From contig JAQTUQ010000001.1 in NCBI GenBank assembly GCA_028707255.1, positions 44,414 through 108,413 on the forward strand: a DNA stretch of 64,000 bases. The letters are read 5' to 3'. A program made the translations under genes and the position numbers. Every line of letters begins with the position of its first letter. Position 1 is the first letter of the stretch. Positions 37,763 to 41,104 of the stretch are shown here, one piece after another. The DNA is from Dehalococcoidales bacterium. Its GTDB lineage: Bacteria; Chloroflexota; Dehalococcoidia; Dehalococcoidales; UBA5627. The notes under the pieces were generated by a model. The model did no database searches. It saw only the letters and a program-made list of their open reading frames with translations, and was not told where the DNA came from.

Positions 37763-39100
37763 ATGAGGTCGGCACAAGAAATCTGGGGAGCTGCACTGGG
37801 CGAACTACAGCTGCAAATAAACAGACCCAACTACCAGACGTGGTTACAGGGAACCGAAGGTATAGAATACAGGGACGGGCATTTCTATATCGGCACTCCC
37901 AATACCTTCGTTGCCGAATACCTCGAAAAGAACCAGCGTTCCCTGATTGAAAAAACACTGATCGGCCTCGTTAAAAGCAAGGTGGTAGCCCATTTCCAGG
38001 TAAGCTCGATTCAACCGGAGCCCACCGACGGGTATGCCTACCGCGAAACACCGCAGGCTATCAATTCGGAAATCTCCGCTTTCAATCCCAAATACACATT
38101 CGAGTCCTTCGTTGTCGGCAGTTCAAACCAGCTGGCATACGCCGCGGCGCAGGCGGCTGCGCAGAATCCCGGCGAGAGTTATAATCCGCTTTTTATCTAC
38201 GGCGGTTCCGGGCTGGGAAAAACCCACCTCCTGCAGGCCATCGGGCATACCTTACAGGCGAAACGCGCCAGTGTGCTCTATGTCAGCGGAGAGCAGTTTA
38301 CCAACGAATTCATAGACGCCATACGGCATAAGAGAACCGATGAGTTCCGCAATAAATACCGCAGCGTCGATGCCCTGATGGTGGACGACATTCAGTTCAT
38401 CAGCGGAAAGGAGCAGACGGAAGAGAGTTTCTTCCACACCTTCAATGAACTGCACAACTCCAACCGTCAAATCGTCGTCACCAGCGACAAGCTGCCGCAG
38501 TCGCTGCCCGGCATGGAAGAGCGCCTGCGTTCCCGCTTCGAATGGGGTTTGACGGTAGATGTCCAGCCGCCCGACATGGAAACAAGGCTGGCTATATTGC
38601 AGTCCAAGGCAGAACAGGCAGACACCGAAATTGCTCTCGATGTACTGGAACTGGTAGCCCGGCAGGCACGCCGCAATATCAGGGAACTGGAAGGCAGCCT
38701 CAACCGCATCATAGCCTATGCCAGGTTGCTGCGGTCGCAGATTACAAGGGAAGTCGCGACAAAAGCCTTAACGAATATAAACGGCAAAAGCGAACCCTGC
38801 GGGCAGGTATCCCATATAAAACTGCTAAGTGCGGTTGCCGATTGTTTTCAACTCGACCCCGAAACCATCATCGGCCCCAAAAGAGATAAAGAAGTGGCGC
38901 TTGCCAGGCAGGTATGCATGTACCTGTTAAAACAGCAGGACGGTTATTCCCTGAGCGAAATCGGCAAAATAATCGGCGGCAGGACTCCTTCCACCGTCAG
39001 TCATTCCTGTGAAAAAATAGCGCAGGATATAGAAAACAGCCCAGTGCTTAAGCGCAAGGTGTTGGATATCCAGTCGTCCCTTAAATCGGATTCGGAGTAA
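37763..39100 (+). CDS. dnaA: Chromosomal replication initiator DnaA
   Basis: 445 residues with standard domains: I (1-80), a short linker II, AAA+ domain III with Walker A GGSGLGKTHLLQAIG and Walker B LMVDDIQFIS, arginine finger EERLRSRFEWGL, and DNA-binding domain IV (about 350-445). Odd feature: the domain IV signature, GGRDHTTVLHA in E. coli, reads GGRTPSTVSHS here, so the recognition residues for the CACA half of the DnaA box differ. This fits the unusual repeats downstream. Confidence 0.97.
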   Translation: MRSAQEIWGAALGELQLQINRPNYQTWLQGTEGIEYRDGHFYIGTPNTFVAEYLEKNQRSLIEKTLIGLVKSKVVAHFQVSSIQPEPTDGYAYRETPQAINSEISAFNPKYTFESFVVGSSNQLAYAAAQAAAQNPGESYNPLFIYGGSGLGKTHLLQAIGHTLQAKRASVLYVSGEQFTNEFIDAIRHKRTDEFRNKYRSVDALMVDDIQFISGKEQTEESFFHTFNELHNSNRQIVVTSDKLPQSLPGMEERLRSRFEWGLTVDVQPPDMETRLAILQSKAEQADTEIALDVLELVARQARRNIRELEGSLNRIIAYARLLRSQITREVATKALTNINGKSEPCGQVSHIKLLSAVADCFQLDPETIIGPKRDKEVALARQVCMYLLKQQDGYSLSEIGKIIGGRTPSTVSHSCEKIAQDIENSPVLKRKVLDIQSSLKSDSE

Positions 39101-39204
39101 CTGCCTCCTAATATCCTGTGCTTGAAAGTGATTCCCTATTACTTCCGATATGCTTTCGACAGGCACCCACAACTGATGTAATTATGGGTCTTTATCAGGG
39201 TCCA

Positions 39205-39600
39205 AGCCTTTTCGATAACTCCGGCGGTTTTCAAAAACTGTATTGTATAAGGATTGTGTTAACGCTCACGTGCTTCCGCAGGCAATAATCCTCTATACCA
39301 ATTACTTCGATAACTGTATTGTCCTTATCATAAAACAGGCAAAACTTTGCCTTTCTTTTGCATAAGCGGCAGTTTATTTTCGATAAACGGAGACCTTTTT
39401 CGATAACTCCAAATTCAGCGAAGCTGCCTTTTTATAATATTTATAAAAATAAATTCATGCAGGTATAAATATCAGGACTTCACATATTACTGGTATTATT
39501 ATATAAAATATAAAGCAACTGATATCATGAATACTTATCATATTCATATAATGATATCTTATAAGTATTAATCAATACTCATCCTTCGTCTTTCTATATA
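39205..39600. other. Candidate replication origin (oriC)
   Basis: Directly after dnaA there are four copies, in one orientation, of TTATCGAA (on the minus strand), near 39210-39218, 39305-39312, 39378-39386 and 39397-39406. Two share the longer GGAGTTATCGAAAA. They are followed by a strongly AT-rich tract (39430-39600) with an inverted repeat AATACTTAT/ATAAGTATT at 39530-39569, a plausible unwinding element. Gene direction largely switches from minus to plus across this point. Single TTATCGAA copies occur elsewhere, but not clustered. Confidence 0.7.
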
Positions 39601-39622
39601 ACAATATGTATTGAGCAATGCA

Positions 39623-39673: not shown

Positions 39674-40579
39674 ATGCAGAAATGGGAGAAAATGCTGGCG
39701 GTGCAGCGTATGCAGGACTTTATTTCCAGTCATCTGAAAGAAGTGATCACTCTTTCGGATCTGGCTAGAGCGGCCGCATATTCGCCGTGGCACGCGGCAA
39801 AAATATTCAAAGAGGTTACGGGCAGACCACCATTCGAGTACATACGCGTTCTGAGGCTGTCCCGGGCAGCCGTAAGATTACATGATGAAGATGTAAGAAT
39901 CATCGATGTGGCATTCGACTTCGTTTTCGACTCTCACGAGGGCTTTACGAGGGCATTCTCTAAGGAGTTCGGTGTAACACCCAGTTATTATGCCAAAAAC
40001 ACGCCTCTGGTGAAACTTTTTCTGCCTGAGTATGCGCGTGATTATTACATCAAATTACAAAAAGGAGAATATGAAATGTCTGAAAACTCAAATACCGTAT
40101 TTGTTCAGGTGGTAGACCGTCCGGCACGCAAGCTGATACTAAAAAGAGCCAAAGAAGCGCAGGACTATTTTGCTTATTGCACGGAACTTGGCTGTGATAT
40201 TTACTCGGAGCTTAAGGATGTAAAAGAAGCTCTTTATGAGCCTATTGGGATGTGGCTTCCGAAAAACCTGCAAAAACCCGGAACCTCCGAGTACGCTATG
40301 GGGGTGGAAATGCCCGCAGACTACAATGGCCGGGTGCCGGAAGGTTATGAAATCATCGACCTTGTTCCCTGCAAAATGATGGTTTTCCAGGGACAGCCTT
40401 ATGATGAGGCTGTTTTCGAAAAAGCCATCGGCGAATTGTGGGCAGTGATGAAGACTTATAATCCGGAAATCTACGGCTTTAAGTGGGCAGATGAGGATGG
40501 TCCGCGCTTTCAGCTTGAACCACAGGGGTATCGCGGTTATATCGAGGCGAGACCGGTCAGGCCTGTTAACGTTAGATAA
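39674..40579 (+). CDS. AraC-family transcriptional regulator with GyrI-like effector domain
   Basis: 301 residues. Residues about 10-105 form two helix-turn-helix units of the AraC type (SDLARAAAYSPWHAAKIFKE and FDSHEGFTRAFSKEFGVTPS). Residues about 135-300 form a GyrI/Rob-like effector-binding domain with FVQVVDRPARKLI and GYEIIDLVPCKMMVFQG. Rob/SoxS-type regulators of this layout respond to small organic molecules, often drugs. It is followed by its own terminator. The nearby location to oriC is probably incidental. Confidence 0.9.
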   Translation: MQKWEKMLAVQRMQDFISSHLKEVITLSDLARAAAYSPWHAAKIFKEVTGRPPFEYIRVLRLSRAAVRLHDEDVRIIDVAFDFVFDSHEGFTRAFSKEFGVTPSYYAKNTPLVKLFLPEYARDYYIKLQKGEYEMSENSNTVFVQVVDRPARKLILKRAKEAQDYFAYCTELGCDIYSELKDVKEALYEPIGMWLPKNLQKPGTSEYAMGVEMPADYNGRVPEGYEIIDLVPCKMMVFQGQPYDEAVFEKAIGELWAVMKTYNPEIYGFKWADEDGPRFQLEPQGYRGYIEARPVRPVNVR

Positions 40580-40738: not shown

Positions 40739-41104
40739 ATGGAGGAAAGGACTGGTAGCAGAGGAATCGGGGTCATCAAATACGCCGGAGCGCATGAAGC
40801 GTATATAAGGAAGAGCCTGGAAGGGGATTGCGACAGGGAAGAACTGGCGCGTTATCATAACATGAAAATACAGTGGCTGCAGCACGAAAGGCTGATTCAT
40901 CTGCTGGTGACGATACTCTTTGCATTCGTCTTCATGTTTCTCTTCGCTCTTTTGATGCTGTTTCCGGGAAATTGGATTATACTGATTCCGCTGGCGATAG
41001 TCATAGTTTTACTCGGCGCCTATATCTTTCACTATTTTAAACTGGAAAACACGGTGCAAAGCTGGTATAAACTGTATGACGAAATTGATAAGAGGTCAAA
41101 ATAA
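40739..41104 (+). CDS. Small two-TM protein of unknown function
   Basis: 121 residues. A soluble N-terminal part (1-55, charged) is followed by two adjacent hydrophobic helices (LLVTILFAFVFMFLFALLML and WIILIPLAIVIVLLGAYIF) and a short charged tail. I do not recognise the family. The ATG is preceded by GGAAGG. It is 65 bases upstream of obg on the same strand. Confidence 0.65.
   Translation: MEERTGSRGIGVIKYAGAHEAYIRKSLEGDCDREELARYHNMKIQWLQHERLIHLLVTILFAFVFMFLFALLMLFPGNWIILIPLAIVIVLLGAYIFHYFKLENTVQSWYKLYDEIDKRSK

Follow-up and report, generated by a model that had tools for sequence, protein, structure and literature searches.

The window analysed here is a 64-kb stretch of DNA on a 108-kb contig of a Dehalococcoidales bacterium, whose genome is a 69-contig MAG of 1.64 Mb. 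Its dnaA gene encodes a complete bacterial DnaA with domains I, III (AAA+) and IV in a single chain (Pfam DnaA_N, Bac_DnaA and Bac_DnaA_C), and the protein scored 494.8 bits against the TIGR00362 DnaA equivalog model (cut-off 343.9). The gene is followed by a gap of about 570 bp that holds a row of short repeats and an AT-rich tract (Table 1). Most relatives in the order have obgE directly after the gap downstream of dnaA. In the window, the gap and obgE are separated by an AraC-type regulator gene (39674-40579, HTH_18) and by an ORF of 121 aa that has no Pfam match (40739-41104).

Table 1. Features of the dnaA locus and downstream gap (window coordinates)
Feature	Position	Strand	Basis or remark
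dnaA, chromosomal replication initiator, 445 aa	37763..39100	+	ORF, TIGR00362, Pfam
GGRTPSTVSHS codons, where the recognition helix of domain IV begins (residues 430-440 in E. coli)	38975..39007	+	gapless alignment to PDB 1j1v and E. coli DnaA
T-P-S codons, residues 433-435	38984-38992	+	alignment to E. coli DnaA
Distal box, TTATCGAAA	39210..39218	-	without counterpart in the genus relatives inspected
Distal box, TTATCGAAG	39305..39313	-	without counterpart in the genus relatives inspected
Core box 3, TTATGCAAA, 21 bp from box 2	39357..39365	-	looser form TTATNNAAA; missed by the original prediction
Core box 2, TTATCGAAA, 20 bp from box 1	39378..39386	-	counterpart in genus relatives
Core box 1, TTATCGAAA	39398..39406	-	counterpart in genus relatives
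Candidate unwinding element: AT-rich tract (72-82% A+T)	39401..39600	.	base composition
Tentative DnaA-trio-like element: degenerate triplets TAATAATACCAGTAATAT, about 80 bp away from box 1	39484..39501	-	by eye

Domain IV was aligned with that of E. coli DnaA (PDB 1j1v) with zero gaps and, as the original prediction had stated, it reads GGRTPSTVSHS where the E. coli protein has GGRDHTTVLHA. The substitutions are D433 to T, H434 to P, T435 to S and L438 to S; R399, R432, T436 and H439 are unchanged. Residue-to-base assignments were taken from papers later than the one describing the E. coli domain IV-DNA structure. Base contacts are named for R399, P423, D433, H434, T435 and H439 (PMC7561715), residues 432 and 438 are named as further contacts (PMC5043019), and the helix formed by residues 434-451 reads TnCACA in the major groove, with Arg399 reading TTA in the minor groove (PMC5742627). 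The changed residues had been described as known contacts of the DnaA box, and this agrees with the literature: the contacts D433, H434 and T435 are replaced by T, P and S, and only R399 and H439 are kept from the canonical set R399, D433, H434, T435 and H439.

The exact word TTATCGAA is present in four copies within 196 bp (39211-39406), all on the minus strand (TTCGATAA on the plus strand). The genome holds 299 copies in 1.64 Mb, which gives a chance expectation of 0.036 per 196 bp; the probability of at least four copies in 196 bp is 6.5e-8 locally and about 5e-4 genome-wide. On the contig the word is about as frequent as its sub-words predict, and its unusual feature is the clustering; a genome-wide enrichment acting as a titration signal was not supported, given that contig frequency. 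Over the whole genome TTATCGAA is about five times commoner than the reversed word (299 vs 62).

Four repeats in the same orientation had been predicted after dnaA; the four copies do lie on one strand, which is the minus strand, but a fifth box, core box 3, had been overlooked. Five minus-strand boxes of one type are thus clustered in about 200 bp near dnaA, and similar clusters are found in relatives. A group similar to the triad at 39406, 39386 and 39365 (20 and 21 bp apart) occupies the same place in four genus relatives, with varied words; no counterpart of the distal copies at 39313 and 39218 was found in the same four genomes. The boxes were also said to share the TTATC half of the classical box and to differ in the second half; the differences do not extend over a whole half but are chiefly at bases 6 and 8 (TTATNNAAA vs TTATNNACA). 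The window boxes follow TTATNNAAA and do not match the classical consensus TTWTNCACA. The classical word TTATNCACA has zero occurrences in the 64-kb window, and TTATCCACA occurs 18 times in the genome, scattered.

The cumulative GC skew, computed for the 108-kb contig of this 69-contig genome, was expected to be lowest near 39 kb and has its minimum at window position 39602, so that a skew switch is present on the scale of this single contig. In the single-contig relative G032, 17 sampled stretches of 20 kb gave a GC skew with too much noise to locate an origin. The AT-rich tract announced beyond the boxes was recovered beside them. Read along the minus strand, the AT-rich tract comes first, then the boxes and then the dnaA stop. 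A scan beside the boxes for a strict DnaA-trio yielded no run of four [AT]A[AG] triplets on either strand; the degenerate trio-like run is clearer in some relatives than in the window. No DnaA boxes were found at the dnaA promoter in the window. The architecture is that of an ordinary oriC, and the stretch is the probable chromosome replication origin of this bacterium.

The box rule was written down on a first set of 55 dnaA loci of Dehalococcoidales before 80 further genomes were fetched (about 135 relatives in total), and k-mer box scans were made on intergenic or dnaA-proximal sequence. The 55 loci fall into four helix classes: those that keep His434; those with a small residue (P, A or S) at 434 and no Asp433, which is the window type; [EQ]-P-I; and D-[PT]. 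Where His434 is kept the boxes are TTATNNACA, and with the window type of helix they are TTATNNAAA. The site scored was base 8 of minus-strand TT[AG]TNNANA, for the His434 class against the small-residue class. In the first set, base 8 was C in 19 and A in 3 sites with His434, against C in 2 and A in 61 in the small-residue class (p=7e-14); the hold-out set of 80 genomes gave C14/A2 against C1/A59 (Fisher p=2.5e-12), and the plus-strand control for base 8 showed no helix-class signal.

Site counts are not independent of one another, and three further tests were therefore added. At [GC]TTATC sites with bases 6-10 left unconditioned, base 8 was C in 15/18 sites of the His434 class and A in 67/71 of the small-residue class, where C was seen just once; base 6 was C in 11 of the 18, against G in 38 and A in 28 of the 71. 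With families as units, the covariation had p=7e-5. A model of correlated evolution was preferred over one of independent evolution (LR 44.3, p=5e-9) on one best DnaA tree, built from domains I-III with domain IV left out. The deep forks of this tree are weak, and one independent pair only is found on starred branches, so that the independent-pairs sign test, with its single pair on supported branches, is without power. No number or direction of switches is claimed, and any order of the protein and DNA changes would be conjectural. Box sites in the relatives are strongly biased in strand (108 minus vs 3 plus) and are spaced by 20-21 bp.

The rule has exceptions. The TTATNNAAA box is absent from the examined stretch in 20 of the 78 genomes of the window helix class, among them several of family f2 and Dehalogenimonas-like members of f9 in which dnaA is not next to obgE. 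Three His434 genomes scored A and not C; classical-like words (TTTTCCACA, TTATCCACT or TTATCCATA) are present in them as well. One box class is common to the helix variants N-A, N-P, S-P, S-A and T-P. Dehalococcoides, which has been cultured, belongs to the window helix class, with S-A-S at 433-435. T-P was rejected as the specific cause of the box change, since N-A sisters within the genus carry the same boxes; judged from the sequences, the feature common to DnaAs with TTATNNAAA boxes is the loss of Asp433/His434, not the particular residues T-P. The proposal that DnaA helix and DnaA box covary at an origin is thus well supported by the relatives and by the skew minimum at 39602, the box class having tracked the helix class in 55 and then 80 genomes.

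We consider it highly probable that the gap is the origin, that the altered domain IV reads the TTATNNAAA row, and that helix and box have changed together. The chromosomal origin would then be this gap of about 570 bp, and DnaA would bind the same-orientation row, its boxes about two helical turns apart, through a recognition helix that has lost Asp433 and His434. Arg399 would go on reading the TTA half, which is unchanged, through the minor groove, and the box-bound row of DnaA would open the adjoining AT-rich tract. Within the order, absence of His434 goes along with a C-to-A change at base 8 and with G or A in place of C at base 6. With A at position 8, a thymine methyl is placed on the opposite strand, and residue 434, when it is a small Pro or Ala, could pack on it. 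The known division of reading fits this scheme, because the TTA half, read by the unchanged Arg399, is itself unchanged and the changes are on the side that the changed residues read.

Several helix variants with a single box class suggest that loss of the Asp/His contacts was the main step, and this makes relaxed binding a live rival: without Asp433/His434, discrimination at bases 6 and 8 would have ended, the boxes would have drifted to A-rich forms, and classical and A8 boxes would be bound about equally. The shared box of N-A, N-P, S-P, S-A and T-P helices does resemble a loss of contact rather than a specific gain. Drift alone, however, should leave more mixed boxes than the one C at base 8 in 71 [GC]TTATC sites, base 6 is mostly G or A and not simply A/T, and plus-strand controls are free of the pattern, and we regard relaxed recognition as rather unlikely.

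It is much less probable that the covariation merely reflects shared ancestry or base composition, two lineages differing by chance in helix and in intergenic words. Well-supported branches do force few helix switches, but the hold-out, family-level and phylogenetic tests agree, and the effect is seen on one strand only, at sites of regular spacing. Hardly more probable is a role of the boxes in autoregulation or titration near dnaA, with the origin elsewhere. DnaA boxes near dnaA have such roles in E. coli (PMC5835720), and the f2 and Dehalogenimonas-like f9 relatives without boxes beside dnaA imply that dnaA and the origin are separable. In the window, however, the boxes are downstream of dnaA and none was found at its promoter, the contig's skew is lowest at 39602, and the boxes border on the AT-rich tract. 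The reading of the gap as an origin with a co-changed helix and box is preferred.

Few protein-DNA pairs in bacteria are as well conserved as DnaA and its box. A switch of site is difficult for an essential initiator, since the boxes of the origin have to change as well. An order whose relatives differ on both the protein and the DNA sides makes such a change testable, and offers a natural set of helix/box pairs for testing how bacterial origins are rewired. Chimaeric domain IVs combined with swapped boxes can reveal the specificity residues and whether intermediates bind both boxes. A practical gain would be a better box for origin finders in the many uncultured genomes of Dehalococcoidales.

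The box word itself is not new. Ori-Finder proposed TTATCGAAA in 2008 as a species-specific box for Dehalococcoides (PMC2275245), and the oriC predicted there has the same word as the window. The Dehalococcoides-like genomes studied here (f9) resemble that predicted oriC in the order dnaA, GTTATCGAAA boxes, obgE. It had been suggested that standard oriC finders could miss this origin; that applies to searches with the E. coli default box only, as Ori-Finder had already listed TTATCGAAA in 2008. That work concerned the box alone, in one genus, and drew no connection to the DnaA helix or to an order-wide TTATNNAAA; what appears to be new here is the recognition pair, DnaA helix and box, as a variant. 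The texts of Ori-Finder 2022 and DoriC 10 make no mention of the group, and neither the protein side nor an order-wide switch was found described in the open literature searched, in which few subscription journals or preprints are represented. In Epsilonproteobacteria, a shifted box was likewise proposed to result from changed residues where helix 5 begins, but there it is base 5 that varies, with the CACA end and the position of His434 mostly preserved (PMC5043019), whereas the changes described here are the loss of Asp433/His434 and differences at bases 6 and 8. The Thermotoga maritima origin also has a bacterial DnaA box unlike the E. coli 9-mer, AAACCTACCACC (PMC10225481, PMC10316083); it is a 12-mer of other sequence, and the case does not involve close relatives whose helix and box differ jointly.

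In other orders of the class, His434 is kept in 55 of 58 dnaA loci, 49 of them with Asp-His, and the downstream boxes, where seen, are mostly TT[AGT]TNNACA. Loss of His434 as a common state thus appears, within this sample, to be particular to Dehalococcoidales. Single cases without the Asp-His pair were noted in other Dehalococcoidia orders (L374, L377 and L380, reading GQTAKASVRYG, GSRHAKTIQYG and GGRRDSSVLRG).

Two further classes were found in an exploratory way, their words being found and counted on the same data. In family f36 (25 genomes, including L258-L281), with a D-[PA]-x-x helix, TCACAAA occurs in the dnaA-obgE gap 14 times on the minus strand and never on the plus strand, a possible further box specificity; in the six genomes with an [EQ]-[PA]-I helix (L164, L165, L167, L192, L194 and L296) the gap carries TTATAG. 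Spacing is mostly 11 bp in both, shorter than the 20-21 bp of the two main classes, the pattern for counting f36 spacings having been picked by eye. The evidence seems to us evenly balanced on whether recognition was rewired more than once in Dehalococcoidales, giving at least four pairs: His434 with TTATNNACA, a small residue at 434 with TTATNNAAA, [EQ]-[PA]-I with TTATAG, and the f36 D-[PA]-x-x helix with TCACAAA, the last two mostly 11 bp apart. If so, natural evolution would have produced initiator-origin pairs that differ in specificity. In L236-L243 (f9, Dehalogenimonas-like by their x-A-A-T helix) and L282-L287 (f2), dnaA is not next to obgE and most genomes are without boxes beside dnaA, which may mean that the origin has been relocated in these lineages, away from dnaA. 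L164 (EPIT) and L153 (NPAT) are close sisters with different helices.
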